A stretch of DNA of 64,000 nucleotides from Methanosarcina acetivorans C2A (GTDB lineage: Archaea > Halobacteriota > Methanosarcinia > Methanosarcinales > Methanosarcinaceae), in the NCBI RefSeq assembly GCF_000007345.1, contig NC_003552.1:1426001-1490000 (forward strand), written 5' to 3'. Below are positions 4,387 through 42,213 of the stretch, one piece after another. The notes under the pieces were generated by a model, which was given only the letters and a program-made list of their open reading frames with translations, did no database searches and had not been told where the DNA came from. Numbering within the stretch: position 1 is the first letter of the stretch; every line of letters starts with the position of its first letter. Made by a program: the position numbers and the translations under genes.

Positions 4387-5478
4387 TCAGGTCCCTGCCT
4401 GAGGGTTAAGGAGCATATCCAGTTCTTCATCCGTGAGCTCATAGTGGAAGAATTCCGAGTAGAACTCACGGGTCAGCCCGGAGAGGTCCGTATCTGCAAA
4501 AAGATCCGGATACAGCATTTTTGCAGTCCAGGCAGTCCCTATTATGAGGTGAGGACCCTGGGGCCTATCGATCCAGCAGAAAGGATTCTGAGGGGCAAGG
4601 TATACCCGTTTGTTCCGGACAGCATCCACACTTGTCCATAGAGAGTCAGAATATACGGATGCGTAAAACTGCGGATTGGAAGTGATAATTATCTCAGGGT
4701 TCCAGTCCATGACCTGTTCTATTGAAACCTGGGTCATGCCGGTTCCGGACTTGAGGGGGCAGTCGGCAACATTGATGCCCCCGCAGATATCAATGAGCTG
4801 GGAGTGTGGAGAACCCGAAGGGTCGGTCATCAGGCCTTTCGGGCCTTCGGCATAGTAAACCCGTACTTTTTCATCTTCGGGAATGTCTTTTACAGTGCTG
4901 TTGATCTCGTTGAGGATTGAACTGCGGAACTCGATCAGTTTTTCGGCCCTGGCTTCACAATCGAGCAGCTTACCCGTATATTCGATAGTGGGATCGGATT
5001 GTGTCACAAGGAGAATAGAATCATCAATAACCACCACCGGGATTCTGCCAAGACTTTCCTGCCTGCGTTCTATGGCTTCATTGATTTGTCCTTCCGTGGA
5101 GGTACTTTCAATAACAATATCAGGATGCATTTCGATAATGGTTTCATAATTTCCGGTTTTGGATCCTAACCAGTTTCCTATTACAGGCAGGTTTGAGTAA
5201 TTCTCATCCATGAAGGGTTGGGTGAGATTTTGTTTGGAGTTCCAGCCCGCAAGTTTCTCCGGGGCGAGCATATACACAAGGATGGTGGAAGGCGAAGAAG
5301 TACCTATAGTCGAGGATATTTCCGCAGGCACGGTTAATTGCCTGCCCAGCATGTCGGTGATATGCACAGTGCTTGAGTTCGGAACAACCTGTTGATCTGC
5401 ATTTCCTGCACATCCACTGAAAGCAACAACTAGAACCAGAAGATAAAGTATCAATGTTGTACCTATTTTTCCACCCAT
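4387..5478 (-). CDS. Metal/chelate ABC transporter substrate-binding lipoprotein, first gene of operon
   Basis: A second binding protein of the TroA/BtuF type for the same importer. The open frame extends to 5637, but that stretch carries the promoter-linked palindrome at 5512-5533, so the start at ATG 5478 is chosen. It gives a clean lipoprotein signal (MGGKIGTTLILYLLVLV, then FSGC). The body includes VHITDMLGRQLTVP, WNPEIIITSNP, and the family ending FYSEFFHYELTDEELDMLL. Its promoter carries elements A and B, shared with the nitrogenase operons, so this uptake system is probably induced together with the alternative nitrogenases. Two binding proteins for one permease suggests a broadened or two-form substrate range. 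Confidence 0.85.
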   Translation of the reverse strand: MGGKIGTTLILYLLVLVVAFSGCAGNADQQVVPNSSTVHITDMLGRQLTVPAEISSTIGTSSPSTILVYMLAPEKLAGWNSKQNLTQPFMDENYSNLPVIGNWLGSKTGNYETIIEMHPDIVIESTSTEGQINEAIERRQESLGRIPVVVIDDSILLVTQSDPTIEYTGKLLDCEARAEKLIEFRSSILNEINSTVKDIPEDEKVRVYYAEGPKGLMTDPSGSPHSQLIDICGGINVADCPLKSGTGMTQVSIEQVMDWNPEIIITSNPQFYASVYSDSLWTSVDAVRNKRVYLAPQNPFCWIDRPQGPHLIIGTAWTAKMLYPDLFADTDLSGLTREFYSEFFHYELTDEELDMLLNPQAGT

Positions 5479-8836: not shown

Positions 8837-10630
8837 TTAGGCATGAGTACATCTCATCGCATGCCGTGGCCAGATACCTGAAGAAGGTCTATGAAAAGAT
8901 CTGTTAGGCATGGCTTCCTTAAACCGCATACCATAAAACTGCATGTAAAAGTCATCAGCTTCCTCTTTCAGGTCGATTCCAAGTTTTCCGGGATGTAGTT
9001 TGTCTGTTATATATAAAAGGCCCAGTATCCAGCGGGGGTTTCCAAAATCCCATGCAGCCGGAACCGCATAAACCTGCCTTTTTTTTACAGCATCTGCATG
9101 TATTCCATATTTCTGGCACAGCTCATAGAACTCATTAAGGGGCCGCGAAAGGAAACTGGAAATGAAAATGGCTTCCGGATTGTGCTCATTGATAAATGCA
9201 GGAGATACATTCACTCCCGGTTTTCCTTTTTTTTGAAGCTGTTTATTGATACTAATGCCTCCGGAAAGCGTCACCAGGTTGTTTTCCATTCTCTCGGCGT
9301 TCAGGGCAAAGAGGGGAGAGCCCATGCAATAATAAGCTTTTTTACAACCTTCATCTTCTGCTGCAATATTCTGGACAATTTCAAGGCGACTGCGAATGAA
9401 AGAGACAAGCTTTCCTCCTTTTTTAGGTACGTTGGCTTTTTTAGCGACAAGTTCTATGAAATCCAGATAAGAATGTGGTTGCTGTGTCATTTTATGTATG
9501 TGTATAAGGGTTCTGGTATCGGAAACTTCTCTCCAGACATCCATTAATTTATCATCCATCCAGAAATCCACTAACTTATCGTCCCGTATATCCAGGCACG
9601 TAAGCACTGCGTGGACCATACGGAAAGCCTGGACTACTCTGTGACCGTCCATAAAGCCAGTTTCACTGAAACTTTCATTGGCAGTTGTCCCTTTAACCGG
9701 AATGCTGTTGCCACAACCACACTTATAACTCACCTTTACAAACCTGGAACCCATGAATTCCTGGAATTCCCTCTCTATTAACGGGCTGCCACATTCGGAA
9801 CAATAGGTGCCCAATAATTCCGTTCCCGGGGAATTAAAGAGGTAAACATAGTCCACATGCTTACGCAGGGAAGAACACAATTTTTCCGCTTCTCCTATTG
9901 AAGGTTCAAGTTCCATCGGAGCATAGCCGAAAGGAAGAAATCTCATGACCTGCAAGGGAATTGTGGGGGAGATTTCAGCCACTGCTTCTGCAACTTTTAT
10001 CATCTCTTCCTCATTTCCTCTGGAATAAACGATTGAAGTTTCGACGTGTACTCCCATGTCGAAGAGCTTTGAAAGGTTGCGGAAAACCGGGGCTGACGAA
10101 GGAACTCCGCAATTCATGTAGCTCCTGTCAGAGTATCCTTTAATTCCCACGTTCATGAAATCTACAAGCTGTCCAAGCTCTTCTAAAGTCTCTTCTGTGA
10201 AATAACAATTGGTTGAACAGCCTGCAAGCAAACCCTGTTCTTTTGCCTTCACCGCAAGGTTCCTGAAGAGATAATAATTTGCAGCAGGCTCATTCATTGT
10301 GGAAACCACACCAAGGCAATTCTGCTGCAGGGCTTTTTCCACTATTTGAGAGGGTTTGAGGGCCAGCTGGTTAAGGGGTCTGCTTGAAGCCAGCACCCTG
10401 GCCATGCAGCCGGGACATTGGAAATTGCAGCCCGTACTAAAAACCTGAAGGAATTTACCTGAAGGATAATAATGAAGCAAAGGAACTGCTTCTATTGAAA
10501 TTGGATATGCCCCAAGGTATCCCATCCCAGGACACTGGGCAATATTGTCGCCTGTACACACATAAGCTCCACATCTGCCCATGCTACATCCTCCGATTTC
10601 GCACCTGACTTCACATATATTGCATTGCAT
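8837..10630 (-). CDS. Radical SAM enzyme fused to an ABC binding-protein lobe
   Basis: This 597-residue protein has three parts. Residues 1-35 hold a Cys-rich cluster (CNICEVRC, CSMGRCGAYVC). Residues about 60-280 form a radical SAM core of the pyruvate-formate-lyase-activase type, with CNFQCPGC as the [4Fe-4S] motif, followed by zinc-ribbon-like CSEC and CGC pairs near 290-325. The last 200 residues match the C-terminal lobe of the metal-binding ABC proteins in this window: NPEAIFIS, RQVYAVPAAWDFGNPRW, then LHPGKLGIDLKEEADDFYMQ. There is no signal peptide, so this lobe works in the cytoplasm. The gene lies divergent from anfH. A role in metal-cofactor chemistry or metal sensing for nitrogenase is inference. 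Confidence 0.75.
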   Translation of the reverse strand: MQCNICEVRCEIGGCSMGRCGAYVCTGDNIAQCPGMGYLGAYPISIEAVPLLHYYPSGKFLQVFSTGCNFQCPGCMARVLASSRPLNQLALKPSQIVEKALQQNCLGVVSTMNEPAANYYLFRNLAVKAKEQGLLAGCSTNCYFTEETLEELGQLVDFMNVGIKGYSDRSYMNCGVPSSAPVFRNLSKLFDMGVHVETSIVYSRGNEEEMIKVAEAVAEISPTIPLQVMRFLPFGYAPMELEPSIGEAEKLCSSLRKHVDYVYLFNSPGTELLGTYCSECGSPLIEREFQEFMGSRFVKVSYKCGCGNSIPVKGTTANESFSETGFMDGHRVVQAFRMVHAVLTCLDIRDDKLVDFWMDDKLMDVWREVSDTRTLIHIHKMTQQPHSYLDFIELVAKKANVPKKGGKLVSFIRSRLEIVQNIAAEDEGCKKAYYCMGSPLFALNAERMENNLVTLSGGISINKQLQKKGKPGVNVSPAFINEHNPEAIFISSFLSRPLNEFYELCQKYGIHADAVKKRQVYAVPAAWDFGNPRWILGLLYITDKLHPGKLGIDLKEEADDFYMQFYGMRFKEAMPNRSFHRPSSGIWPRHAMRCTHA

Positions 10631-11518: not shown

Positions 11519-12346
<828 letters not shown>

Positions 12347-13307: not shown

Positions 13308-13997
13308 TCAGAGATTTTGTGCATTCATTATTCTGAGAGTCATGGATTTGCTGGTTAAAGATTTTGTGCATTCATTACTCTCATTCATTATTCTGAGAGT
13401 CACCTTATTTTGCAATTCACTCATGATTTCATACTTTAACCCAAAACCTGCTAATTCCGTGTCAAACCACTTCGGAATATGACTGAAAAGTATGTCCAGT
13501 TTGTTAAACCCTTTATCTTTTAGATAAGGAATTAAAATTTTCTTTGAACTCAAATCAGGATTTATTAACATGACTTCTTCCAGATTAAGGGAAAAATCAC
13601 CTTTATTCACACCAGGTTTCAAAAATTGCATAATATCGAATCTGGAGGGTTCTTCCTGCCTCTTTTTAGCGATCTCAAGCATCCCTTTTTTGACGGAACC
13701 AAGAATATCCAGTACGCGATCTTCCACAAGGAATATATTAAGGCTTGCTGCTTGAAAAGCTCCGAAAGCTATCCCTGGAATGTCACTTGCAACCAATATC
13801 CTTACATCGTCAAGCTGCTTTACGGCATCTCCCACAGCTACCCGTACAGCAGAAATACCCTTCGCATCACAAACTTTGTTTTCAAAACGTTTAAGAATTT
13901 TCCATTCTCCTCCGTCTTCCTCATATACTGAAATAAATCCAGGTTCAAATATTGAACTCGTTTTTTGGTTATTGTCTTCCACAACTGCAATTTTCAA
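13308..13997 (-). CDS. anfO: AnfO-family iron-only nitrogenase accessory protein
   Basis: AnfO proteins are found only with iron-only nitrogenases, usually directly downstream of anfK, as here. Their exact function is unknown. The 229-residue product starts MKIAVVEDNNQKTSS and has VASDIPGIAFGAFQAA in the middle. Near the C terminus it has the conserved block SKKILIPYLKDKGFNKLDI, then SHIPKWFDTELAGFGL. The start is TTG at 13997 after GGAGGAAATATC. The last 30 codons hold a tandem duplication of a TLRIMN-coding unit, visible as direct repeats at 13300-13405. The assignment rests on recalled family features plus position. The 400 bases up to anfK hold hairpins and no convincing gene. Confidence 0.72.
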   Translation of the reverse strand: MKIAVVEDNNQKTSSIFEPGFISVYEEDGGEWKILKRFENKVCDAKGISAVRVAVGDAVKQLDDVRILVASDIPGIAFGAFQAASLNIFLVEDRVLDILGSVKKGMLEIAKKRQEEPSRFDIMQFLKPGVNKGDFSLNLEEVMLINPDLSSKKILIPYLKDKGFNKLDILFSHIPKWFDTELAGFGLKYEIMSELQNKVTLRIMNESNECTKSLTSKSMTLRIMNAQNL

Positions 13998-14402
13998 GAT
14001 ATTTCCTCCTTTCAGATTGGAAATTAGAGTATATTTATATTAAAACTAAAATAGTTATTTTCCTCTGAAACGTTCTGCTCCTTCACATAAGTTCCGAAGG
14101 GTTGTATTTCTTAAGTAAAATGATTCTAACTTTACAACAATTTAACATAAAGGTAAGATAACATAAAAACAGGCAGCTGATAAAAGCAGTGTAGATGCAC
14201 CCCTGCATTTTTTGTTTCGCAAAGGAGCAAGAGGGCGAAAGCTTATCTTTTGCAATCGGATGCATCATCACATTTGAGTTTATGTTTACTGTTAATTGAT
14301 CCTGCCAGAAATCAGTAACACTGTGAACTGGCAGACCCCAAAAAAATCTCAAGTGACTCTCACATGCTTGAGAGTTCAAAGGTTTTATTCAACGAATAAG
14401 CC

Positions 14403-15791
14403 TTACCATACATTCAATATCCATTCCCTGTCTTTCTTATATTCCATATCTGCGAAGAGCGTGTTTGCCATCTGTTCAGCAAGCCATATAGCGCCTTCAT
14501 ATCCAACAACTGGATGGCGGTACATCCCTGCACGATCAAAAGTGGGGAAACCCACACGTACCATAGGGATATTGTTGTCGATAGCAGTCCATCGACCCTT
14601 GGAATGCCCCATAATCAAATCAAGTTCAATTTCCTTATCCTTGATCCTCCTTTCAAGTTCCCACATATCTGCATTCATAATAATCTCCATATCGAAATCG
14701 ACTTTTTCCTGCAATTCTTTGATGCGTGGATCATCCGGATAAGTTTTGTTGTCATCTCCAAGAAGAAGAACCATAGGTTTCATCTCCATATCGAGGCAGA
14801 ATTCAGCAAGACCAATGACAAGGTCTGGATTTCCGTATATAGCAACCTTCTTGTCTGCGAAAAACATGTGAGTAAGGTCAGTAATTGCATCGATTGCAAT
14901 TCCTCTTTCGCAAACAAGTGATTCTGGAATTGGTTTTCCTGTCATTTTCTTCAAATTTTGCAGGAAAGTATCCGTATTACGGATTCCGATCGGAGTCGGT
15001 CCTATGATTGCAGGAACATCAAATTCGCTTTCAAGATATTTGGCGGCTTTTGCACCTTCATATCTGTTCAGTGCAATTGTTCCTGTTGCATTTGCAGTTC
15101 CGGTCAGATCTTCTATCGTTGTACTGCCATGGGCAACTCCACTTTTATCCGGCATCAAAGGAGAATCAAAGCTTTCGATTTCGAAAAGGACTGTTGCATC
15201 GATGTCCATTGCTGACAAAAGATGCTTGAGTGCAGTAACATCTCCAGGATTGACCCATCCGGTGATCAGGTTGATTTTTCCATTAGGTTTATCTTTTTTG
15301 GCAAATTCCTTTACTATATCATGGACCGCCACATCATAGCCAGTTACCATACTTCCTTTAAAACTTGGAGTATGGATAGGAATAAGGTGTACCTCCCGAT
15401 CTGCATATTTCTCTTTCAGAAGCTTTTTGTTTAGTTTCCGAATAAGACCGTCAATATCATCTCCAATAACTTCAGTCGAGCACGTCGTGATGATTGGTAC
15501 AACCTTCACACGTGGGTACCTCGTCAAGAGCACATCGACAGCCTCTTCAACTCTATTGAGAGCTCCAAATACTGCACCGTCCTCATGTAGAGATGAGGAT
15601 GCGATCTCGAAGCTATCCTTGAAATGCTGTGCGAGTAGCATACGGACGAACATTACGCATCCCTGCCCTCCATGAACGATTGCGATACAGTCCTTTATTC
15701 CTATACTGGCATACTGTGCTCCGCAGGGCTGGCATGTGAATATAGGGTTGATAATTCCCGGACGTTCTCGTTCTTTTAGTTCACAAGACAT
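14403..15791 (-). CDS. anfK: Iron-only nitrogenase FeFe protein beta subunit
   Basis: This 462-residue protein is the beta subunit of the alpha2-beta2-delta2 iron-only nitrogenase. It helps hold the P-cluster: CQPCGAQYA near residue 19 and the GGQGCVMFVR loop near 44 carry two of the expected Cys ligands, with TTCSTEVIGDDI near residue 105 holding the third. The C terminus ends DREWILNVW like VnfK. The start is ATG 15791, 15 bases after anfG. It resembles the vnfK product at 23778 along its whole length but belongs to the AnfDGK set by its neighbours. Confidence 0.92.
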   Translation of the reverse strand: MSCELKERERPGIINPIFTCQPCGAQYASIGIKDCIAIVHGGQGCVMFVRMLLAQHFKDSFEIASSSLHEDGAVFGALNRVEEAVDVLLTRYPRVKVVPIITTCSTEVIGDDIDGLIRKLNKKLLKEKYADREVHLIPIHTPSFKGSMVTGYDVAVHDIVKEFAKKDKPNGKINLITGWVNPGDVTALKHLLSAMDIDATVLFEIESFDSPLMPDKSGVAHGSTTIEDLTGTANATGTIALNRYEGAKAAKYLESEFDVPAIIGPTPIGIRNTDTFLQNLKKMTGKPIPESLVCERGIAIDAITDLTHMFFADKKVAIYGNPDLVIGLAEFCLDMEMKPMVLLLGDDNKTYPDDPRIKELQEKVDFDMEIIMNADMWELERRIKDKEIELDLIMGHSKGRWTAIDNNIPMVRVGFPTFDRAGMYRHPVVGYEGAIWLAEQMANTLFADMEYKKDREWILNVW

Positions 15792-15806
15792 AATATTTCC
15801 TTTTCC

Positions 15807-16157
15807 TCAATAGAGCGGGTTAGTGAGTTCTTGATTAAGTGACCCGTTAATAGTTAAGTAGTCGATACGGTCTTTTAGCCCCTGCATAAGCAGCTTGATA
15901 TCTTTTTTTTCCATCGTGCCCAGCCAGGGGTACGTCTTTTTGAAACCATTAGCCAGATACACAGCATCTACCCAATAGCATCTATCTGAAGGCGTGCTGA
16001 GATCAACAGGTTCGTCACACAGTAATTGCATGGTTTTCGTAAGGATCCCTTCATTTTGTCTCTCTCTGTCCCAGGAACGTGAATGAAACTGCCACAGGCA
16101 CCATTTCATAATAAAATCTACAAGCTGCTCTATTCTATCTTTCATAACGTCGTCCAT
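15807..16157 (-). CDS. anfG: Iron-only nitrogenase delta subunit
   Basis: The delta subunit is found only in V- and Fe-only nitrogenases and is needed for cofactor insertion and activity. At 116 residues it has the expected size. The mark is the aromatic-rich stretch [20 protein letters not shown] (residues 20-39), shared with VnfG at 23399 (CLWQFFSRSWDREENIEG). It sits between anfD and anfK with gaps of 22 and 15 bases, as in other anf operons. Confidence 0.92.
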
Positions 16158-16179
16158 TTATGACCTCACCCTCTTTCTA

Positions 16180-17769
<1,590 letters not shown>

Positions 17770-17775
17770 TTATTT

Positions 17776-18156
17776 TTATAGAAGGGCACTATCTCCCTGG
17801 TCGTCTGTTCTCACTCGAATGGCATTATCCACCGGACAGATGAAAACTCTCCCGTCGCCAATCTGAGCTGTTTGATTGACTTTAATTATTGTGTCAACAG
17901 CAGTATCGACATCTTCATCACTGACGATTAAATACAGCAGACGTTTGGGAATAAATTCCATATATTTCATTCCAGCCAACAAGCCCTGATCCAAAAGACC
18001 GGGACGAATATCAATGTTGAGCTCTTCTGCAATACCTCGTTGCTTGCCTCGTCCAAATACCGGGACTACAGTTACACTCGGGATTCCAAGTTCCACAAGA
18101 GCTTCCTTTGTAGGTTCAACTTTTTTTGGACGAATTATTGCAATTATTTCTTTCAA
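17776..18156 (-). CDS. nifI2: NifI2 PII-type regulator of nitrogenase
   Basis: NifI1 and NifI2 form a complex that binds and switches off nitrogenase after ammonium addition; 2-oxoglutarate relieves the inhibition. This GlnB-family protein shows the start KEIIAIIRPKKVEPTKEAL, the T-loop region VVPVFGRGKQRGI and the ending GDGRVFICPVDNAIRVRT. The frame is open to 18213, but comparison with VnfI2 (MKEVTAVVRP) places the start at TTG 18156, with GAGGTG ahead of it. That leaves 13 bases after nifI1 and yields 126 residues. It is part of the operon nifI1-nifI2-anfDGK-anfO. Confidence 0.9.
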   Translation of the reverse strand: MKEIIAIIRPKKVEPTKEALVELGIPSVTVVPVFGRGKQRGIAEELNIDIRPGLLDQGLLAGMKYMEFIPKRLLYLIVSDEDVDTAVDTIIKVNQTAQIGDGRVFICPVDNAIRVRTDDQGDSALL

Positions 18157-18169
18157 AGCGGCACCTCTT

Positions 18170-18487
18170 TTAAAGCCCTGAAACTCCAGTACGTATCGTG
18201 TACGCGTCGTCAACAGGAGTTATAAAAATTTTACCATCCCCACAATTGCCTGTGTACGCTTTGTATTTAATAAGTTTAGCAACTTCTTCAACAGACTTAT
18301 CTTCAACGACTAGCATTATCACTGTTTTAGGAAGTTCATCATAATGTATTATTCCTACTGTAATTCCTTTTTGTTTCCCACGACCAAATACATCTATTTT
18401 TGTCAGTGAGAAAAAACCAGCCCCTTCAAGTCCGTCGATAACATCATCAGCGGCTTCAGGACGTATTATAGCTTTGATCATTTTCAC
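18170..18487 (-). CDS. nifI1: NifI1 PII-type regulator of nitrogenase, first gene of the anf operon
   Basis: Partner of NifI2 in post-translational nitrogenase control. The sequence MKMIKAIIRPEAADDVIDGL, the T-loop FGRGKQKGITVG and the ending GDGKIFITPVDDAYTIRT are typical PII features; its 105 residues fit NifI1. Its promoter has element A and element B in the same order and spacing as vnfH and anfH. Here nifI1 heads the operon because anfH lies apart on the other strand, whereas in the vnf operon nifH precedes nifI1. Confidence 0.92.
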   Translation of the reverse strand: MKMIKAIIRPEAADDVIDGLEGAGFFSLTKIDVFGRGKQKGITVGIIHYDELPKTVIMLVVEDKSVEEVAKLIKYKAYTGNCGDGKIFITPVDDAYTIRTGVSGL

Positions 18488-18658: not shown

Positions 18659-18680
18659 GATATGTTTAATAAAACATAAC
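18659..18680. promoter_or_regulatory. Element B palindrome (anf operon)
   Basis: GATATGTTT-N4-AAACATAAC, one mismatch in the left arm. It lies 15 bases downstream of element A in the direction of the anf operon. Confidence 0.6.
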
Positions 18681-18695
18681 AAATATTTATATCAA

Positions 18696-18718
18696 AGGAA
18701 AACAGTTACCTATTTCCT
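18696..18718 (-). promoter_or_regulatory. Element A operator in anf operon promoter
   Basis: On the minus strand: AGGAAA-TA-GGT-A-ACT-GT-TTTCCT. The TATA box (TATTTATAA, about 18727-18735) sits 9 bases upstream, the same spacing as at anfH and vnfH. The start codon is 210 bases farther on. Confidence 0.65.
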
Positions 18719-18801
18719 ATTTAATATTATAAATAGCTTTCTATTGACAAAAGAAAATTTAATCCTTATTTGTCGACGAAAGCCCTCTGGAACAAAATAT
18801 G

Positions 18802-18823
18802 GTTATGTAATTCTAAACATAAC
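18802..18823. promoter_or_regulatory. Element B palindrome (upstream of anf TATA box)
   Basis: GTTATGTAA-N4-AAACATAAC, two mismatches. It lies about 70 bases upstream of the anf TATA box, where an activator could bind. Confidence 0.5.
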
Positions 18824-19419
18824 GAATAATAACCATGAATTAAAAGTTCAGAGTCGGAAATAGCCAAAATGCTTCAAAAACATTCTAAATATGAAAACAT
18901 TCTAAATATGCATTTGGGCCGTTATTGAGGAGAGTCCCCATTACTTCAAAAAGTTTCATAATACAAAAAATGTACTTTTTAATAAAATCAATTAGTTGCT
19001 TCGCTATTTTGAGCGGGGATTCCAATCACTTTTTAAATATGATTAATACTTAAACACCTTTTGTTTGAGAAATCATACCCAGAATCGATTTTTATCCATT
19101 AATAGAATTGCTATATTTCAATTGGGCACCATTTGTTACCTATATGATTCCAAAATTCTGCATTATTTTTATTGAGATAATTATTTCTCATGATATCGTT
19201 TTTGAAATAAATCAATATATTCTAAAATCATAGTAAAATAGTTGAAAATCGAATGCTATTGTTTTTTAGTCGCTAGTTTTTTAGTCGCTAGATACACATT
19301 TACCTGCCTTTAATTCCTGCACAAGAGTTTAATCAGGTTCACGTTAATTTAAAAATTGGCCAAAATTAAAATTATGAAACTGCGAAATTTTGATGCGGAG
19401 AGTGAGATAACACATTGAA

Positions 19420-19530
19420 TTGCCGTAATTAGGCATAGATGCTTCGTCACATACTGTGGCTAGATGTTAGAAGAAGACCTGTTAAACCCGGCTTCTTTGA
19501 ATTTTCATACCTCACAAATGCCGTATAACT
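19420..19530 (-). pseudogene. Relic of the radical SAM/binding-protein gene 3' end
   Basis: The stretch GTAATTAGGCAT, CATACTGTGGCTAGAT, then AGACCTGTTAA and GGCTTCTTTGAATTTTCATACC follows 8832-8935, the 3' end of the radical SAM gene and its flank, base for base with scattered changes. The rest of the gene is missing. It lies about 0.9 kb before vnfH on the strand opposite to it, mirroring the position of the intact gene before anfH. Confidence 0.6.
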
Positions 19531-19702
19531 TATCTGCCTTCCACTTCTGCTGGCATGAAGTGTTATGGACTATGTTTTTGAGTTTACATGTCCCCTCTAA
19601 ATATACTAACTAATTTTCTTAAATAAGTACTCGTTTAATAAGTACTCGTTTAATACCTTTTATGCGAAAAACTTAAGGTGCATTCGTTTTTCATGTGAGT
19701 TT

Positions 19703-19724
19703 GTTATGTTCAGTTAAGCATAAC
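19703..19724. promoter_or_regulatory. Element B palindrome (vnfH distal)
   Basis: GTTATGTTC-AGTT-AAGCATAAC, one internal mismatch between the arms. First of three copies within 500 bases before vnfH. Confidence 0.55.
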
Positions 19725-19780
19725 CTGATGAGGTACTTAGTTTCACGAGATAAAAAACCAAAATTTATTGAAATAAAATA

Positions 19781-19802
19781 GTTATGTTTACTTAAACATA
19801 AC
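19781..19802. promoter_or_regulatory. Element B palindrome (vnfH middle)
   Basis: GTTATGTTT-ACTT-AAACATAAC, perfect 9-bp inverted repeat, 56 bases after the distal copy. Confidence 0.6.
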
Positions 19803-20137
19803 AATATGCAATTCACACCCTTTTGTACTGAAAGCAATGCACACCCACGATTTGGAAATTAAGTGTTTGTGTAAAAAGCATACTGTACTATGTTTTCCTT
19901 ATTACATAATGATGCCGTATGCAATCGATAATTGACCACTATCTTGTAAGTTTTATATTATGCATAAACATAATTCAAACTCTTTCTTTTGGAATAAAAC
20001 AATTATCGATAAATTATACATAAATGGATACTGATATCTTTTTTTAGTAACCGTTTTTCTAACTATACATATCTCAAATTTTTGTTTTTATCTCTTTTTC
20101 AAGGACTGGCGATAGATACTTATTTATAGTTTCATAT

Positions 20138-20160
20138 AGGAAATAGGTTACTGTTTTCCT
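20138..20160 (+). promoter_or_regulatory. Element A operator in vnfH promoter
   Basis: AGGAAA-TA-GGT-T-ACT-GT-TTTCCT, 9 bases after a TTTATA box at 20123-20128. Confidence 0.65.
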
Positions 20161-20175
20161 GAAACTTAAATCATT

Positions 20176-20197
20176 GTTATGTTTGAATAAACATAAT
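20176..20197. promoter_or_regulatory. Element B palindrome (vnfH proximal)
   Basis: GTTATGTTT-GAAT-AAACATAAT, 15 bases after element A and inside the expected leader. Confidence 0.65.
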
Positions 20198-20324: not shown

Positions 20325-21185
<861 letters not shown>

Positions 21186-21204
21186 CCTGGGGGTGAGTTG
21201 GCAA

Positions 21205-21522
21205 ATGAAGATGATTCGTGCTATATTAAGACCTGAGTGGACGGAAGAAGTAACCGATGGACTTTCAGAAGCTGGATATTATTCTCTTACAAAAATAAAC
21301 GTTTTCGGTAGAGGTAAACAAAAAGGGATTACTGTTGGTGATATGCACTACGACGAACTCTCAAAAACCATGATCATGATGGCTGTGGAAGATGAAGCGG
21401 TTGAAGAAGTAATAAAAATCATTTCTGGTAAAGCATATACAGGCAGTATGGGAGATGGAAAAATCTTTGTGAGCCCGATCGATGACGCATACACGATTAG
21501 TTCGGGTGCAAAAGGATTATGA
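21205..21522 (+). CDS. nifI1: NifI1 PII-type regulator of the vnf operon
   Basis: Partner of the next gene in ammonium switch-off. MKMIRAILRPEWTEEVTDGL at the start, the T-loop FGRGKQKGITVGDMHYDELS and the ending GDGKIFVSPIDDAYTISS mark NifI1. A GTG at 21193 is in frame, but GGGGGTGA ahead of ATG 21205 and alignment with the anf copy favour the ATG. At 105 residues it equals the anf NifI1 in length. Confidence 0.92.
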   Translation: MKMIRAILRPEWTEEVTDGLSEAGYYSLTKINVFGRGKQKGITVGDMHYDELSKTMIMMAVEDEAVEEVIKIISGKAYTGSMGDGKIFVSPIDDAYTISSGAKGL

Positions 21523-21568
21523 AAATAATTCTAAAAGCAGGAAATTTTGAAAACCGGGAGGTTTCCAT

Positions 21569-23737
<2,169 letters not shown>

Positions 23738-23774
23738 CTGAACAAAAATATCAGCTGAATCAAAAGGGGGTTAA

Positions 23775-25163
<1,389 letters not shown>

Positions 25164-25180
25164 CCGAAAGGAGGCAAAAA

Positions 25181-25255
25181 ATGGAAGAATTATATGAAAT
25201 CGGGAAAAGGCCCTGGTTCAGTATAGTTGAGCTGTCCTTTGTGGTAGCTTTCTGA
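25181..25255 (+). CDS. 24-residue small ORF between vnfK and vnfE
   Basis: ATG 25181 has a near-ideal AAAGGAGG 6 bases ahead and lies 17 bases after the vnfK stop codon. The peptide starts MEELYEIGKRPWFSIVEL and ends in a short hydrophobic stretch. No homologue is recognised. It may be a real small peptide of the operon, or the truncated start of a lost gene, since the next 110 bases are non-coding and contain a hairpin. Confidence 0.4.
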   Translation: MEELYEIGKRPWFSIVELSFVVAF

Positions 25256-25305
25256 GCAACAATTGCCTTGATTCCCGTTCAGGTGGCATAAAGTTGTAGC
25301 TAAAG

Positions 25306-25332
25306 CAATCAAGAATTTTTTATTTTTGATTG
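25306..25332. promoter_or_regulatory. Hairpin between vnfK and vnfE
   Basis: CAATCAA and TTGATTG arms flank an AT-rich loop with a T-run, 30-60 bases before vnfE. It could be an mRNA processing or partial-termination site that lowers expression of the cofactor-assembly genes relative to vnfDGK. Confidence 0.4.
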
Positions 25333-25364
25333 TAATCAACTGCATAAAAGGAATGAGGTTTAAT

Positions 25365-26894
25365 ATGGTCGGCATCGCTAATGAGAGTGTAGTATTTTTT
25401 GGAAATTTAAGCGAGCTTTATCAACTGGCAAAAGACGGGAAAATCGATACGAAATTACAGGGCAGCCATACCCGACCCTGTAAATTCTGGACTGCAATGA
25501 AAATACTGAGTGGGATTAAAAATGCTGTCGTGATTGCTCACGGCCCCAGCGGCTGTGCATTCGGAGTAAAGCAGACCTATAAGCTAACAAATTGCAGAAA
25601 CAGTGGTTCGCCTTATGAAGCTGTCATTACCACAAATATTGATGAGAAAGCTGTTGTGTACGGGGGCGAAAGGGAACTGAAGGGTGCCATACAGGAGGTC
25701 GACAGCAAGTATAAGCCGGACATCATTTTTGTAGCGACAAGCTGCGCTACCGGAATAATAGGAGACTATGTGGACGCAGTAGTGAGTAGAGTCCGGCCTG
25801 AAATTAACGCCAAAATCATGGCCGTTCACTGCGAGGGCTTTGCCGGAGAATACAGGAGTGGGTTCGATCTCGTTTTCAGGCAGATCGTTCAGCTCATGGA
25901 TAAGCCTGATTCGGAAAGCAGAGTAGCGCTTGCCAGTTCGGTCAATATCGTCGGGGGGAAGATGGGTCCCGAGAGGACGGAAATTGATACTGATGTTAAA
26001 GAATTGCGGCGCTTAATTGAAGACATGGGCGCAAGCGTAAATGCAATTATTGCAGGCAACTGCTCGCTGGAGGAGATACAGCGGGCTCCCAGTGTGGCTG
26101 TAAACTGTACTTTATGCCTGGACCTCGGGTATGCGATAGGAAGAGAAATGCTTGACCAATTTGACACCCCTCTGAATTCGACGATTCTTCCTTATGGTAT
26201 CAGTGCAACGGAAAGATGGCTGAGGGAAGCGGCTAAGCATTTACACATGGAAGCTGAGGCTGAAGCCCTGATCAAAAGAGAATATGAAGCAATACGTGTC
26301 GAATTTGAAGAGGCAAAAAAACATCTTGCCGGCAAGCTGGCAATTGTTGAAGGACATGACGCGATAAAGGCTCTGTCAATTGCTCACATGCTCGAACGTG
26401 ATTTCGATATGCGTGTGGTCATATACAATTTCCATCCCTGGAGCACGGAAGCAAGAGAAACAAGTATCGATTACCTTCTGGAGACCGGGCTTGACCCTGA
26501 AATACTGATAACAAAGGGTACGCTTGCTTTCGGAAAATATGAGGCAATGCTTCAAACTGAAAATGAGCTGCTTGAATATCTGGGAGATATGAGTCCGGAA
26601 AGAACCGTATACTTCGGGTCATCAATGAGTTTCCCGAATATTCCGGTAGTCGACTTAAACGCCATATTGAACCGTCCGAGATTCGGTTACAGGGGGGCCT
26701 TAAAGGTGGCAAAATGTATTTGCACTGCTCTTGAGTATTCCTTCAGACCACGCAGCTGGGTAACAAAAAGAATGGTGTTTCCTGAAAAATCAGGGCTCTC
26801 TTCGGCTCAGTCGCTTACCCCGAAACTTGCTCAGGAGCTGCCGGATTGTACAATCTATGCAGGGAAGGGGAGGGGCAAATGTATGATGAGCTAA
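25365..26894 (+). CDS. vnfE: Cofactor scaffold alpha-like subunit NifE/VnfE
   Basis: VnfE and VnfN form the scaffold on which the FeV-cofactor precursor from NifB is matured. The frame is open to 25326, but the start ATG 25365 (MVGIANESVVFFGNLSEL) has GAGG 6 bases ahead, giving 509 residues. P-cluster-like Cys positions are kept: GSHTRPCKFW, GPSGCAFGVKQ and ATSCATGIIGDYVDAV. It overlaps the start of vnfN by 16 bases. NifB itself is not in the window and must be supplied from elsewhere. Confidence 0.9.
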   Translation: MVGIANESVVFFGNLSELYQLAKDGKIDTKLQGSHTRPCKFWTAMKILSGIKNAVVIAHGPSGCAFGVKQTYKLTNCRNSGSPYEAVITTNIDEKAVVYGGERELKGAIQEVDSKYKPDIIFVATSCATGIIGDYVDAVVSRVRPEINAKIMAVHCEGFAGEYRSGFDLVFRQIVQLMDKPDSESRVALASSVNIVGGKMGPERTEIDTDVKELRRLIEDMGASVNAIIAGNCSLEEIQRAPSVAVNCTLCLDLGYAIGREMLDQFDTPLNSTILPYGISATERWLREAAKHLHMEAEAEALIKREYEAIRVEFEEAKKHLAGKLAIVEGHDAIKALSIAHMLERDFDMRVVIYNFHPWSTEARETSIDYLLETGLDPEILITKGTLAFGKYEAMLQTENELLEYLGDMSPERTVYFGSSMSFPNIPVVDLNAILNRPRFGYRGALKVAKCICTALEYSFRPRSWVTKRMVFPEKSGLSSAQSLTPKLAQELPDCTIYAGKGRGKCMMS

Positions 26895-28219
26895 AATTCG
26901 AGAATTGCAACCATAGCAAGGACCCGATGGTCGGATGCGCTCTTGAAGGTGCTGCCGGCATACTGGCCGGTATTAAGGATATCAGCATTGTCATACATTC
27001 TCCTCAAGGTTGTTCTTCAACGGTTTCAGTAGCTTATGATACCCACGAAATTGACTTTACAAAGCGAAAGGTTGCATGCACCCGGCTTTTTGAAACGGAT
27101 ATAGTTATGGGCGCTTCGGATAAGCTGAAGGAATTGATCAGGGAAGTTGATTCGAAATTTAAAACCCGGGCTATTTTCGTAATTGGCACATGTGCAGCTG
27201 ATATTATCGGTGAGGATCTTGAGGGCTTATGCAGAAATCTCCAGCCGCAGATCAATGCGAAGCTTATCCCCCTGATGGCAGGAGGGTTTCGAGGAGACAG
27301 CTATGCCGGGATTGACATGGGGCTGAAAGTCTTATTCCCTTTCATCAAAAAGCAGAGTGAAAAAATTCCAAACACTGTGAACTTAATAGCCCCTCAGGCA
27401 AACCTGAATCCTACATGGTGGGCGGATTTGAAATGGATACGTGAAGTCCTCGAAAAAATCGGTATTCGAGTGCTGGCTGTGCTGCCTCATGAGACTTCAC
27501 TGGAGGAGCTGGGTAGTGCGGGGCTGGCATCGGCAGATATACTTCTCAGTCATGATGCAGGGTATGAATTCGGATTAAAAATGCAGGAGGTTCATGGGAT
27601 CCCTCTCATACTTTCGGATATCCCTCTCCCGGTCGGGCTGAAAAATACGGCAAGGTGGCTTCGTGCGCTGGGTAAGTATTTCGGCATTGAAGAAAATGTC
27701 GAGACGATAATAAAAGAAGGAGAAGATCTGACCATCGACGTGCTGAGACGAAGGGGATTGATGATGATTCAACGGTATCGCAACTGCAGAGTAGCCGTTT
27801 CAGCCGATGCAACCCTGGGAATAGGTTTGACCAGGATGCTGTTCGAAGAGCTGGAAATGATTCCGGAGCTGTTGCTTTTCAGGTCTTCTATGCCCGACTC
27901 TCAGTCGTTGTTGGAAAATGAACTTAAAGCTATGGGGATTTCTCCCAGGGTTGTTTTTTCCGCAGATGGGTATCAGGTAAAGCAATCCTTAATGGACAGC
28001 AACGTTGATGCCGTATTTGGTTCTTCCTGGGAATATTACATGGCTGAAGAACTGGGGATAAAGTTTGCATTTGACGTTTTCAACCCGACAAATAGAGTCA
28101 ATTATCTGAATAAGTCCTATTTCGGATATGAAGGGATGCTGAACTTTTTAGAAAATGTCGCAAATGATTGGGAAAGATCACTGCGTTCGAAGCAGATTAA
28201 CTGGGAAGAGTATTTGTAA
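26879..28219 (+). CDS. vnfN: Cofactor scaffold beta-like subunit NifN/VnfN
   Basis: Partner of VnfE, 446 residues from ATG 26879 (MYDELKFENCNHSKDPMVGC), preceded by GGAGGGG. It has NifN/NifK-fold marks such as LEGAAGILAGIKD, VIHSPQGCSSTVS and FVIGTCAADIIGEDLEGL. The overlap with vnfE implies coupled translation and a matched amount of the two scaffold subunits. The next gene, a NifX-like carrier, follows after 23 bases. Confidence 0.9.
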   Translation: MYDELKFENCNHSKDPMVGCALEGAAGILAGIKDISIVIHSPQGCSSTVSVAYDTHEIDFTKRKVACTRLFETDIVMGASDKLKELIREVDSKFKTRAIFVIGTCAADIIGEDLEGLCRNLQPQINAKLIPLMAGGFRGDSYAGIDMGLKVLFPFIKKQSEKIPNTVNLIAPQANLNPTWWADLKWIREVLEKIGIRVLAVLPHETSLEELGSAGLASADILLSHDAGYEFGLKMQEVHGIPLILSDIPLPVGLKNTARWLRALGKYFGIEENVETIIKEGEDLTIDVLRRRGLMMIQRYRNCRVAVSADATLGIGLTRMLFEELEMIPELLLFRSSMPDSQSLLENELKAMGISPRVVFSADGYQVKQSLMDSNVDAVFGSSWEYYMAEELGIKFAFDVFNPTNRVNYLNKSYFGYEGMLNFLENVANDWERSLRSKQINWEEYL

Positions 28220-28242
28220 CTAAGAGGAATTGAGGTGGCAAT

Positions 28243-28800
28243 ATGGATTGTGCATTCACAGCCCTGAAAAAGAGTGTACGGATGCGTGGGATCTTGCTGG
28301 CAAATACCACAGGTTTTAAAGAGGGAGATGTGGGGTTGTTGAATGAAGAGGAAGTGTTTACCGACGGTCATTCAAGAGAACTTGCAGACGATACATTTGT
28401 GCAGGATAAGCAAAAAAAAGAGGTTGAAAACAGGGACAATGGGAAATTCAAGGTAGCGGTCACTTCCAGAGGAGGAAAGCTTGTTGACCAGCATTTCGGG
28501 AAAGCAACTACTTTTATGATTTTTGAAATTGAAGGTCAGGATTGCAAATTTCTTGAGACGCGTTCAACAAAGAAATACTGCAACGGAGGAAGCGGAATCG
28601 GTGTGGAACCCCTTGAGAAAAACGAAACAATAAAGTCGATTTCGGATTGTGATGCCGTGCTTACCATGAAAATCGGGTCAGGAGCGCAAAAAAAGCTTCA
28701 AGAATACGGGATTGATTGCGTTGAATATTGTTATACTATAGAGTGTGGATTAAAGTATTTGCAGATGGTGGGGAAACAGAGAGACAGGTATAAAATTTAA
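28243..28800 (+). CDS. vnfX: NifX/NafY-domain cofactor carrier (VnfX-like)
   Basis: The C-terminal 115 residues form a dinitrogenase-cofactor-biosynthesis domain: KVAVTSRGGKLVDQHFGKAT, where the GG-x-V-x-QHFG signature matches NifX, NafY and the NifB C terminus, followed by a Cys-containing region and DCDAVLTMKIGSGAQKKL. Such domains carry NifB-co or finished cofactor. The first 70 residues, rich in charged residues, are not recognised. It is the last gene of the vnf operon. The gene symbol is by position. Confidence 0.7.
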   Translation: MDCAFTALKKSVRMRGILLANTTGFKEGDVGLLNEEEVFTDGHSRELADDTFVQDKQKKEVENRDNGKFKVAVTSRGGKLVDQHFGKATTFMIFEIEGQDCKFLETRSTKKYCNGGSGIGVEPLEKNETIKSISDCDAVLTMKIGSGAQKKLQEYGIDCVEYCYTIECGLKYLQMVGKQRDRYKI

Positions 28801-28802
28801 CC

Positions 28803-28867
28803 GAGTTATACGGCAAACTGAATTATACGGCAAACTGAATTATACGGCAAACCGAATTATACGGCAT
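28803..28867 (+). repeat. Four tandem 17-bp repeats after the vnf operon
   Basis: The unit GAATTATACGGCAAACT occurs nearly four times directly after the vnfX stop. It might take part in ending the operon transcript or be simple slippage. The rest of the gap to 29058 shows no gene. Confidence 0.7.
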
Positions 28868-29057
28868 TATTTTCGAATATCGATAGTTTTTCTCGATTCC
28901 GGAATTTAATAAGCCGTCAACCATTATTTTCCTTTTGATGCAAAGTTTTTTGGAAGCATTTTACTTCTGATAACCGGGGGTATAACCGGAAGCATCTTTA
29001 CAATGGATATTTCCTGGAAATTGGTGCTGAATTCTAAGAATAAAAAGAGGTACCTGA

Positions 29058-30155
29058 ATGAACACAAAAATAATAACTATTCTCTTCATCGCATTCTTAT
29101 CGGTATTATTTTTCACTGGCTGTATAGAAGAAAAAATCAGCTCGCAGGAACATGGGAGCACAAAAGGCATATCCTCTTCAAACGATGAAAACACAGAGAA
29201 TAGGACTGTTACTGATTCGTTAGGTCGACAAGTTCAGGTTCCTTTAATGGTAGAAAGGGTTGCAGATACCTGGATGGGGCATAATGAGGTGCTGGCTATG
29301 CTTGGAGCTGATGACAGGCTTGTTGCTACAATGTTCAGTCCCCAAAGTAGGCCGTGGATGTATAAAGTTTGTCCGACCTTCAACGATGCTGTGACACTGA
29401 GCCCGACGTATGATATCGAAGAGTTGCTTGCTACAAAACCTGATGTTGTTTTCATGTCGAAATCCGATAAGAATCTCGAAAAGATATCCAATCTTGGAAT
29501 TCCTGCAGTACAGGTAAGTTTTACAGATTTCGATTCTATGAAAAAATGCATTTCAGATACTGCCAATGTGTTGGGGGATGAAGAAGCCCTGGAACGCGCA
29601 CAGCAATATAATACATATCTGGACAGTAAACTGGAATCGGTAAGAAATACTTCATCCCAGATACCTGACGAAAATAGGCCAAAAGTTCTTCATGTGGTTT
29701 CACTCTCACCTTTGTGTGTAGATGGCGGTGGAAATATTATAAGCGATTGGATTGAGGCCGCAGGAGGGGTTAATGCAGCCGAAGAGGTAAAAGGGGGTAT
29801 CATGCAGGAAGTTTCAATGGAACAAATATTAAAGTGGAATCCGGATGTGATTATTCTTAGTGTGAACGCCAAATCCCGGGAGAAAGAACAAATTATGAAC
29901 AGTGACCAATGGAAAAAAGTTAAAGCAATTCAGGATAACAGGGTGTTTCTAAATCCGGAAGGGGCATTTATCTGGAGCCGGGCCGGAGCAGAAGAAGCGC
30001 TTCAGATTCAATGGGCTGCAAAAACCATCAATCCGGATAAGTTTCAGTTCATTGACATAAATAATGAAACAAAGTGGTTCTACAAAACTTTCTTTGAGTA
30101 TGAACTTACGGATGAGGAAGTTCAAAAAATTCTGAATGCAGAGGCGCCAAATTGA
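29058..30155 (+). CDS. Metal/chelate ABC transporter substrate-binding lipoprotein
   Basis: A TroA/BtuF-type binding protein of 365 residues with a lipoprotein signal (MNTKIITILFIAFLSVLFF, then TGC). Family marks are TVTDSLGRQVQVP, WNPDVIILSVNAK and the ending FFEYELTDEEVQKIL. AGAGGT lies 6 bases ahead of the ATG. No permease or ATPase is adjacent, so it must feed one of the other importers in the window or elsewhere. It directly follows the vnf operon, which suggests uptake of a metal needed for that enzyme; vanadium would be a natural candidate, but nothing in the sequence proves it. Confidence 0.82.
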   Translation: MNTKIITILFIAFLSVLFFTGCIEEKISSQEHGSTKGISSSNDENTENRTVTDSLGRQVQVPLMVERVADTWMGHNEVLAMLGADDRLVATMFSPQSRPWMYKVCPTFNDAVTLSPTYDIEELLATKPDVVFMSKSDKNLEKISNLGIPAVQVSFTDFDSMKKCISDTANVLGDEEALERAQQYNTYLDSKLESVRNTSSQIPDENRPKVLHVVSLSPLCVDGGGNIISDWIEAAGGVNAAEEVKGGIMQEVSMEQILKWNPDVIILSVNAKSREKEQIMNSDQWKKVKAIQDNRVFLNPEGAFIWSRAGAEEALQIQWAAKTINPDKFQFIDINNETKWFYKTFFEYELTDEEVQKILNAEAPN

Positions 30156-36769: not shown

Positions 36770-37861
36770 TCATGTCGAGCTTGCAGGAGGCAGATGCTGC
36801 AGTATCCTGTTTGCTTCATCATCTGTCAGGTTATAGTGGTAGAATCTCGAGTAGTAATCTTTGACCTCACTGGTCATGTTCAGATCCTCAAACAGTTCCG
36901 GATGTAGAGTTTTGGCAAAATACTCCATAAGCAACACCCCTTCAGCACCATAGTCCCACCAGGCTACTCCCTGTGGGCAGAGATATACCCTGTTATTCTG
37001 CACAGCCTTCAAGTTACTGAACCTGGGGTCATTCGTAAATATATCTGTACTGTTGACATGTCCTACATAGATTACATCAGGATTCCATACAAGCAGCTGC
37101 TCCGGTGTAATTGTTTCAATCCCTTCCATATCTCCGGAAATATATTTGCCGCCAGCCATCTCCACATAAAACTGCGGATAAGAGTTTTTACCCTGATTTG
37201 TCATTGCATCATTGGCATAGTATACCGTGGGACGCTCACTATCTGTAAGGTTTGCAGTTCTCGATGTCACATAATTCGCCTTCCGATCAAAGTATACACC
37301 CCATTCGTCAGCAGTCTTTTTTGCATCCGGGCCCATTACTTCACCATAAAGCGCGATTTCCTGCTTCACATATTTAACGAATGAGTCTACGTTATCAGGA
37401 TTTCCTGAGTTTTTCTGAGTAACCACAACAGGAATATTACTCGAATTTAATTTATCCCTTGTAAAATCCAGGCAAAATACTACCTGTACTTTTTTGCTTA
37501 TGAGATCTTCAACATTAGGATTTTGTTGATTTCCATTCATTGGGATATTTCTCAACTGCGGAGCTACCTTATAGGCCCATGGGAAATCATTGGACACACG
37601 TATTGTCACTGCCATTTTGTCTGTTTGGTTTAGCAAAATTAATTTTTCATATGATTGACCAGCAAGAGCAGCGACATGAGTCACATTTGCTGGTATAGTT
37701 ACAACTCGTCCCTCTTGATCTGTAATCTGAACGTATTTATCAGACTCTATCTCAATACTTTGATCAGATTTTGTGTTACTATGACCTACATGTGCAGCAA
37801 CGGATACTATTGCAAGGACTGCAATAAGTGCAACAACAGCCACTATACCCCTTTTATCCAT
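36770..37861 (-). CDS. Metal/chelate ABC binding protein, tandem copy 1
   Basis: One of three tandem paralogues of the TroA/BtuF type. The N terminus (MDKRGIVAVVALIAVLAIVS) is one hydrophobic stretch without a lipobox Cys, so the protein is membrane-anchored or cleaved. YVQITDQEGRVVTIP and the ending YYSRFYHYNLTDDEANRIL are family marks. WWDYGAEGVLLMEY is shared by all three copies. GGTGTGA precedes the ATG. It sits downstream of the permease and ATPase at 40.3-42.2 kb. Confidence 0.85.
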   Translation of the reverse strand: MDKRGIVAVVALIAVLAIVSVAAHVGHSNTKSDQSIEIESDKYVQITDQEGRVVTIPANVTHVAALAGQSYEKLILLNQTDKMAVTIRVSNDFPWAYKVAPQLRNIPMNGNQQNPNVEDLISKKVQVVFCLDFTRDKLNSSNIPVVVTQKNSGNPDNVDSFVKYVKQEIALYGEVMGPDAKKTADEWGVYFDRKANYVTSRTANLTDSERPTVYYANDAMTNQGKNSYPQFYVEMAGGKYISGDMEGIETITPEQLLVWNPDVIYVGHVNSTDIFTNDPRFSNLKAVQNNRVYLCPQGVAWWDYGAEGVLLMEYFAKTLHPELFEDLNMTSEVKDYYSRFYHYNLTDDEANRILQHLPPASST

Positions 37862-37867
37862 TCAATC

Positions 37868-37978
37868 ACACCTTTAACTCCATTTTAATTTTGTATTGAT
37901 TTTTTTCTTCGACCGATGAAGGTACAATTAATTTTATGCCTTCGTTGCTGTCGATTTCTTCAAAAGCATTAATAACTG
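37868..37978 (-). repeat. Spacer repeated between the tandem binding-protein genes (copy 1)
   Basis: About 110 bases including TTTTCTTCGACCGAT and CCTTCGTTGCTGTCG are almost identical to the spacer at 39060-39168. The repeated unit of gene plus spacer is about 1.19 kb, showing recent tandem duplication. Confidence 0.75.
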
Positions 37979-39054
37979 GCAGGCGGGAGATGCTGCAGTA
38001 TCCTGTTTGCTTCCTCGTCTGTCAGGTTATAATGGTAGAACCTCGAGTAGTAGTCTTTGACCTCACTGGTCATGTTCAGGTCTTCAAATAGCTCAGGATG
38101 CAGGGTCTTGGCAAAATATTCCATGAGTAGTACCCCTTCTGCACCATAATCCCACCAGGCCACTCCCTGCGGACAGAGATATACTCTGTTATTCTGTACA
38201 GCCTCTAAATTAATGAACTTGGAATCGTTCGTAAATATATCCGTACTGTTAACATGACCAACATAGATCACATCAGGATTCCATACGAGTAGCTGCTCCG
38301 GTGTAATTGTTTGAATCCCTTCTGTATCTCCTGAAATATACTTGCCGCCAGCCATCTCCACATAAAACTGCGGATAAGAGTTTTTACCCTGATTTGTCGT
38401 TGCGTCTCTGGCATAGTATACCGTGGGACGCTCACTATCTGTAAGGTTTTCAGTTCTCGATGTCACATAATTCACTTTCTGGTCAAAGTATGCACCCCAT
38501 TCCCCTGCGGTCTCTTTTGAATCCGGCCCCATCACTTCGCCGTAAAGCGCTACCTCCTGCTTCACATATTTTACGAATGAGTCTGCATCATCAGGATTTC
38601 CTGAGTTCTTCTGAGTGACCACAGCAGCTATATTGGTCGATTTCAGTTTCTCTTTCGTACCATCGTATGATCTGCAAAATACTACCTGTACTTTTTTGCT
38701 GATAAGATCTTCAACATTAGGATCGTCTTCCATTGGAATATCCTTCAACTGCGGAGCTATTTTATAGGCCCACGGAAAATCATTTGACACATGCATTGTC
38801 ACTACCATTTTGTCCGTTTGGTTTAGCAATATCAATTTTTCATACGCCTGACCGGAAACAGCAGCCACACGGGTGACATTCTCCGGTACAGTTACGATTC
38901 GTCCTTCCTGGTCTGTAATCTGAACGTATTTATCAGACCCTATCTCACTACCTTGATCAGATTTTGTGTTACTATGACCTACATGTGCAGCAACGGATAC
39001 TATTGCAAGGACTGCAATAAGCGCAACAACAGCCACTATTCCCCTTTTATCCAT
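37969..39054 (-). CDS. Metal/chelate ABC binding protein, tandem copy 2
   Basis: This 361-residue protein is very close to copy 1: the first 35 residues are the same, and they diverge mainly around residues 90-140 (IPMEDDPNVEDL here, IPMNGNQQNPNVEDL in copy 1). That region lines the ligand cleft in this fold, so the copies may bind different forms. GGTGA precedes the ATG. Confidence 0.85.
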   Translation of the reverse strand: MDKRGIVAVVALIAVLAIVSVAAHVGHSNTKSDQGSEIGSDKYVQITDQEGRIVTVPENVTRVAAVSGQAYEKLILLNQTDKMVVTMHVSNDFPWAYKIAPQLKDIPMEDDPNVEDLISKKVQVVFCRSYDGTKEKLKSTNIAAVVTQKNSGNPDDADSFVKYVKQEVALYGEVMGPDSKETAGEWGAYFDQKVNYVTSRTENLTDSERPTVYYARDATTNQGKNSYPQFYVEMAGGKYISGDTEGIQTITPEQLLVWNPDVIYVGHVNSTDIFTNDSKFINLEAVQNNRVYLCPQGVAWWDYGAEGVLLMEYFAKTLHPELFEDLNMTSEVKDYYSRFYHYNLTDEEANRILQHLPPASY

Positions 39055-39059
39055 TCAAT

Positions 39060-39168
39060 CACCTTGAACTCCATTTTAATTTTGTATTGATTTTTTCTTC
39101 GACCGATTAAGGTACAATTAATTTTATGCCTTCGTTGCTGTCGATTTCTTCAAAAGCATTAATAACTG
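39060..39168 (-). repeat. Spacer repeated between the tandem binding-protein genes (copy 2)
   Basis: Near-identical to 37868-37978; together they mark the boundaries of the duplicated unit. Confidence 0.75.
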
Positions 39169-40250: not shown

Positions 40251-40327
40251 CCAATCACCTTAATTTCCCATCATATGTCCGGATCGATTTGTTTTCATAG
40301 CCCCGTTGTTTTCATAGCCCTGTGTGG

Positions 40328-42138: not shown

Positions 42139-42171
42139 TGTTCTTTCCACACCGGATCTATGTACATATCC

Positions 42172-42193
42172 ATTATGTTTATTTGAACATAAC
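42172..42193. promoter_or_regulatory. Element B palindrome (42-kb metal operon)
   Basis: ATTATGTTT-N4-GAACATAAC, one or two mismatches in the arms. It lies 34 bases before the permease start and 20 bases downstream of a degraded element A. Confidence 0.6.
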
Positions 42194-42213
42194 AACTATT
42201 ATATAATGAAATA

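Follow-up and report, generated by a model that had tools for sequence, protein, structure and literature searches.

Gene content of the locus

The window, i.e., the whole stretch of 64,000 nucleotides analyzed here, corresponds to C1:1426001-1490000 of the Methanosarcina acetivorans genome (5,751,492 bases). It carries on its minus strand a gene in which a radical SAM (rSAM) domain is joined to the C-terminal lobe of a binding protein. The following features were assigned to this fusion gene (residue numbers refer to the protein):

8837..10630 (−), rSAM/binding-protein C-lobe fusion gene, 597 aa
10571..10624 (−), N-terminal Cys motif C3/C6/C10/C20, common to AmmeMemoRadiSam enzymes
9992..10441 (−), Radical_SAM core, residues 64-213 (Pfam PF04055, 1.2e-13)
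10406-10429 (−), CNFQCPGC, residues 68-75, within the Radical_SAM core
9713..9802 (−), zinc-ribbon-like motif C277/C280/C304/C306, kept in 42/42 homologues
9506..9685 (−), helical linker in place of the N-lobe, residues 316-375 (structure model)
8924..9505 (−), backbone helix and C-terminal lobe of class III binding proteins, residues 376-569 (profiles, fold)

The neighborhood contains two importers, two sets of nitrogenase genes and a number of palindromes resembling Mo boxes:

1236-2396 (−), binding protein (Pfam)
2396-3178 (−), ATPase, by similarity to genes of the ancestral operon described below
3169-4212 (−), FecCD permease, by similarity to genes of the same operon
4387..5478 (−), binding protein with 82% identity to its counterpart in the ancestral operon
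10867-10886, 11026-11045 (6-bp spacer), 11112-11131 and 11337-11356, four Mo-box-like palindromes between the fusion gene and the nifH-type gene
11519..12346 (+), nifH-type gene facing the fusion gene; at the nucleotide level, 11498-12346 is 97% identical to vnfH at 20337-21185
13308..18487 (−), anf genes (ANFD, 1144 bits)
18660, 18803, 19704, 19782 and 20177 (span 18660..20196), five more palindromes, in the interval from anf to vnfH
20325..30155 (+), vnf cluster (H, I1, I2, D, G, K, EN-like, X-like, binding protein; VNFD, 1025.8 bits)
36770..42417 (−), another importer of the FecCD type, with a tandem of three MolA-like binding proteins and with palindromes at 42173 and 42398

The radical SAM part

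The PF04055 match scored over the gathering threshold, which bears out the initial annotation of the product as a radical SAM enzyme with the motif CNFQCPGC. The three cysteines C68, C72 and C75 are kept in 41 of 42 fusion homologues; the one copy without them is truncated before residue 99. Residues 1-321 matched the NCBIfam model TIGR04337 (AmmeMemoRadiSam rS) with 95.5 bits, which is under its cut-off of 220. The two further cysteine clusters named in the initial annotation were identified as C3/C6/C10/C20 and C277/C280/C304/C306, and to these C105, C138 and C174 have to be added. Both clusters, together with C68/C72/C75, are conserved over the 42 homologues and recur in two AmmeMemo paralogues from the M. 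acetivorans genome. The fusion homologues likewise conserve C138 and C174, which neither paralogue has, while the conserved C105 is present in one of the two.

The stop-to-stop frame extends the N-terminus by just one residue. Within the first 60 residues no hydrophobic segment was found, the highest 15-residue Kyte-Doolittle mean being 1.18, compared to an average of 2.78 for the neighboring binding proteins. Since the N-terminus holds no such segment, the protein was assigned no signal peptide, as had been stated before. Judged from its sequence, the product is a cytosolic, AmmeMemoRadiSam-like rSAM protein.

The half binding protein

As a single sequence, the protein matched PF01497 (Peripla_BP_2) below the threshold (16.4 vs. 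27.5 bits). A profile of 44 binding proteins, built without two split fusion fragments, matched residues 376-569 with an i-Evalue of about 1e-20. Only positions 146-342 of the 359 profile positions were covered, whereas positions 1-145 were unmatched in the window protein. The same match of the C-terminal half alone was obtained for 39 of the 42 fusion homologues and for none of the shuffled sequences. Compared to the PDB, the C-terminal profile of the family retrieved class III binding proteins (4hn9 at 1.3e-17), the second half of whose chains was aligned. This match to the PDB is independent evidence for the C-lobe.

The AlphaFold model of residues 316-580 reached a pLDDT of 83 and a pTM of 0.84, and its top Foldseek matches were all class III binding proteins (4ovk at 1.6e-9, 4hn9 and MolA 3psa). 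Because the input alignment of the model contained binding proteins, the predicted fold is supporting rather than independent evidence. A full-length model based on four close homologues was discarded (pLDDT 35.5).

The C-terminal lobe of a metal-binding protein, as initially proposed, was thus recovered by profile, PDB comparison and model, and the structure prediction and fold search revealed no different fold. Its extent needs correction, from the last 200 residues to residues 376-569. According to both profile and model, the N-lobe is absent and just 60 residues stand in its place (316-375), which are all-helical in the model, peculiar to the fusion family and free of any match to the binding-protein profile. 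In a search over the window's phylum, the module of linker and C-lobe was essentially confined to fusion frames. Five residues in loops of the lobe (P439, G457, N462, P485 and W534) are almost invariant in both subfamilies of the fusion, the second of which is described below.

Distribution of the fusion family

The window's own phylum was sampled in depth (393 genomes), and a full-length fusion was found in 49 of them, showing that the fusion is a stable protein family. In-frame stops in homologues were mostly ordinary terminal stops, besides some broken copies. A contig scan for close relatives yielded four, every one from Methanosarcina.

For 26 of the 49 fusion-bearing genomes, no nitrogenase alpha subunit over the cut-off was identified. 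The association between fusion and nitrogenase has a p-value of 2e-7 phylum-wide, with kinship ignored; inside the Methanosarcinaceae, the family of the window, no significant association was obtained (p = 0.19). As more than half of the fusion genomes are nitrogenase-free, an outcome named in the initial annotation as speaking against its proposal, a nitrogenase-specific reading of the domain pair, as favored in the initial annotation, fails.

A second, more divergent fusion subfamily (L058:8502, L051, L055 and L056) is 33-37% identical and has other neighbors; genes of the nitrogenase type were found some 6 kb away from one of its members. At L052:7690-9425 (genome G159), the rSAM part and the C-lobe are encoded in two overlapping frames, i.e., as a split or frameshifted fusion. 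A description of the domain pair or of its operon was not found in the open-licence papers searched. The fusion is, on the comparisons above, an rSAM enzyme with half a binding protein, which may have been described earlier.

The ancestral operon

In most loci, the gene order is binding protein, class I SAM methyltransferase, fusion, FecCD permease and ATPase, with genes that overlap or stand few bases apart. Of the 42 fusion copies, 35 have the methyltransferase within 4 kb and 23 have the FecCD permease within 5 kb. Some loci carry extra methyltransferases and a DUF364/DUF4213 protein. The M. acetivorans genome has its own operon copy of the fusion (C1:5581392-5583155), which is 73% identical to the window copy. 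The link to a metal complex proposed earlier is supported by the FecCD importer genes, by the Mo-type operators and by the C-lobe with its conserved loops.

In the methyltransferase of this operon (L042:10300-10806, near 5.583 Mb), codon 169 is an in-frame TAG; homologues carry Lys or Glu at this position, and the homology continues in full beyond it. Read-through as pyrrolysine is a candidate explanation for this TAG, the alternative being a nonsense mutation.

The permease and ATPase genes at 2396-4212 resemble those of the operon. The tandem binding proteins at 36770-40250 are copies that are 78-87% identical to the first, with MolA as the closest solved relative. Molybdate-binding MolA (3psa) is among the closest solved relatives for the binding proteins of both importers with Mo boxes. 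The operon and importer binding proteins also resemble binders of iron and nickel complexes. Upstream of the gene at 4387-5478, a palindrome (5513-5532) is located 34 bp from the Met that aligns with homologues.

A paralogue linked to the vanadium nitrogenase

A second fusion copy was found beside vnf in 6 of 6 VNFD-bearing Methanosarcina genomes, whereas two copies occurred in none of the 25 others. The vnf-linked copies form a monophyletic clade (SH-aLRT 99), which includes the window copy as a paralogue. Their distance to vnfD is about 2.5 kb, compared to 11 kb in the window. In three genomes (G310, G331 and G381), the fusion gene and a cluster with a D subunit of the VNFD type (over 1000 bits) are transcribed divergently. 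No fusion adjoins the anf cluster of G381 (L064), and anf had no match in G310 and G331 in the nitrogenase search. Since the latter two have vnf but no anf match, the copy is tied to vnf, not to anf. By phylogeny and synteny, the window holds a paralogue that was recruited to the genes of the vanadium nitrogenase, with the vnf cluster as its ancestral neighbor.

The nitrogenase tie of the initial annotation therefore holds for the window copy with respect to vnf (6/6 vs. 0/25), but neither for anf nor for the family as a whole. Its divergent position to anfH is literally correct here but secondary, as five other species have the fusion beside vnf. Anf genes between the fusion and vnfH were found in this genome alone. 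The 97% identity of the anf-side and vnf nifH genes suggests a duplication or gene conversion. Two anf-side genes (12770-13182 and 13452-14025) also have degenerate copies beyond the fusion gene, at 6018-6428 and 8080-8651, respectively.

The vnf copies keep 105 of the 119 near-invariant residues of the family, so a wholly new function is not indicated. Their changes cluster at the linker motif GGYR and at residues 291-293. The adjacent methyltransferase is absent beside the vnf copies.

Operator and probable molybdenum regulation

The palindrome TTATGT-N8-ACATAA was found in 13 exact copies genome-wide, compared to 2 for the backward control, and 7 of the 13 are inside the window. The variant with a 6-bp spacer did not outnumber its control over the genome (19 vs. 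26). Exact palindromes are also located at the promoters of modABC and of two fmd (formylmethanofuran dehydrogenase) operons, whose names were read from translations; a further copy falls within the coding sequence of nifK, and for another no target is evident.

A weight matrix was derived solely from the mod and fmd sites. In most Methanosarcinaceae loci, it placed a strong site 33-35 bp upstream of the leading gene of the operon. A few loci deviate in spacing, owing to uncertainty about the true start codon. Sites of this matrix were also present in each of the four vnf-linked intergenic regions. Upstream of the operon outside the Methanosarcinaceae, no matrix site was found, so that control by Mo may not be ancestral.

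Bacterial ModE boxes have the form CGTTATAT...ACATAACG, which is close to TTATGT-N8-ACATAA. A ModE-like protein of the genome (position 340178; 63.8 bits, E 6e-17, below the 98.5-bit cut-off) has an HTH followed by a TOBE-like segment, and its gene adjoins a Wtp/Mod-type transporter. These data point to a ModE-type operator common to modABC, fmd, vnf, anf and the fusion operon, and the latter appears to be switched by molybdenum supply. The fusion and its operon were not found as ModE regulon members in the open-licence papers searched.

Two operators are also located at L093:1-4399 (near 362.7 kb), between an fmd operon and a divergent gene pair for a methyltransferase and a 497-aa putative lipoprotein, both of which are possible further regulon members.

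Proposed role of the fusion

The rSAM domain, the C-lobe, the ancestral operon, the ModE-type operator and the vnf-specific duplication are all read from the sequence. The explanation we favor, giving it about an even chance, is that the fusion is a cytosolic rSAM enzyme of a Mo-regulated metal-acquisition system of methanogens, of which the window holds a vnf-recruited paralogue. At low Mo, the importer would bring in a Mo or W complex (here V) or a thio- or oxyanion. Modification of the imported complex or its organic ligand would fall to the rSAM domain, joined in the ancestral system by the methyltransferase, in analogy to HutW/HmuW, which open imported heme to free iron. The fused C-lobe would be the retained half of a ligand site, holding the complex against the rSAM active site, an arrangement that would take over the role of the missing N-lobe. 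HutW and HmuW are known examples of rSAM enzymes encoded among metal-uptake genes (PMC10035031, PMC10404700). Against this explanation stand the missing methyltransferase beside the vnf copies and the resemblance of the binding proteins to binders of iron and nickel complexes. MolA-like proteins can moreover bind a bare oxyanion, which would make a ligand-opening enzyme needless.

A more specific form is put forward tentatively and is considered somewhat unlikely. The rSAM barrel and the C-lobe would constitute a composite clamshell that processes Mo, W or V chelates in the cytosol under Mo starvation, with a radical enzyme replacing half of a receptor; the vnf paralogue would then be a dedicated vanadium-handling enzyme of the V-nitrogenase.

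Alternatively, the rSAM enzyme and the methyltransferase could make a secreted ligand of the molybdophore or vanadophore type, which is re-imported by the ABC transporter of the operon while the C-lobe holds the growing ligand. The joint encoding of an importer and two SAM-using enzymes fits such a pathway, as do the extra methyltransferases and the DUF364 protein near several homologues. Genome context ties this 'heavy-metal chelation' family to Mo, W and V transport or chelation and to siderophore-like synthesis (PMC2954201). However, the conserved neighbors include neither a backbone synthetase nor an exporter, and the packed operon has no room for a precursor-peptide gene, which leaves this pathway rather improbable.

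It is distinctly less probable that the C-lobe is a ligand-free scaffold or docking domain and the rSAM part a protein activase or modifying enzyme of the AmmeMemo/PflA type. The nearest named families are indeed AmmeMemoRadiSam rS and the glycyl-radical activases, but a survey of nearby genes found no glycyl-radical enzyme, AMMECR1 or Memo among the conserved neighbors of fusion loci, and the five loop residues are near-invariant in both subfamilies. About as improbable is a role restricted to nitrogenase, with the fusion as maturase or sensor in the assembly of the FeV or FeFe cofactor, which was the direction of the initial annotation: the window copy and its orthologues are strictly vnf-linked and have operators in common with vnf, but 26 of the genomes with the parent family are nitrogenase-free, G381 lacks a fusion next to its anf cluster and the vnf copies keep most near-invariant residues.

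How methanogens acquire Mo, W and V in sulfidic, metal-poor settings, and the route of V to the V-nitrogenase, are poorly known. The fusion family connects Mo supply with a radical enzyme, in nitrogenase-bearing and nitrogenase-free organisms. It offers a testable gene set with a predicted operator and an unusual enzyme architecture in the genetically tractable M. acetivorans.

Comparison with known systems

AmmeMemoRadiSam rS (TIGR04337) shares with the fusion the N-terminal CxxCxxxC...C, the rSAM core and the C-terminal Cys4 ribbon. The fusion adds C138, C174 and the C-lobe, and scores below the TIGR04337 cut-off. With the Peripla_BP_2 class III solute-binding proteins (4hn9, 4pag and MolA 3psa), the backbone helix and the C-terminal lobe are in common. 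Unlike these proteins, the fusion has no N-lobe or signal peptide, is predicted to be cytosolic and is joined to an enzyme.

The anaerobic heme-opening rSAM enzymes HutW and HmuW likewise belong to a locus for the uptake of a metal complex, an analogy of function only; a binding-protein lobe is not reported for them in the available text of PMC10035031 and PMC10404700. The ModE regulon corresponds to the fusion operon in its palindromic operator, here at modABC, fmd, vnf and anf; the candidate regulator of the genome, with its HTH and TOBE-like segment, scores below the ModE cut-off. The molybdate importer MolBCA (MolA 3psa, HI1470/71) is, as here, a FecCD-type importer with a MolA-like binding protein, which in the present case stands under a Mo-type operator. 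Compared to MolBCA, the fusion operon adds a methyltransferase and the rSAM fusion.
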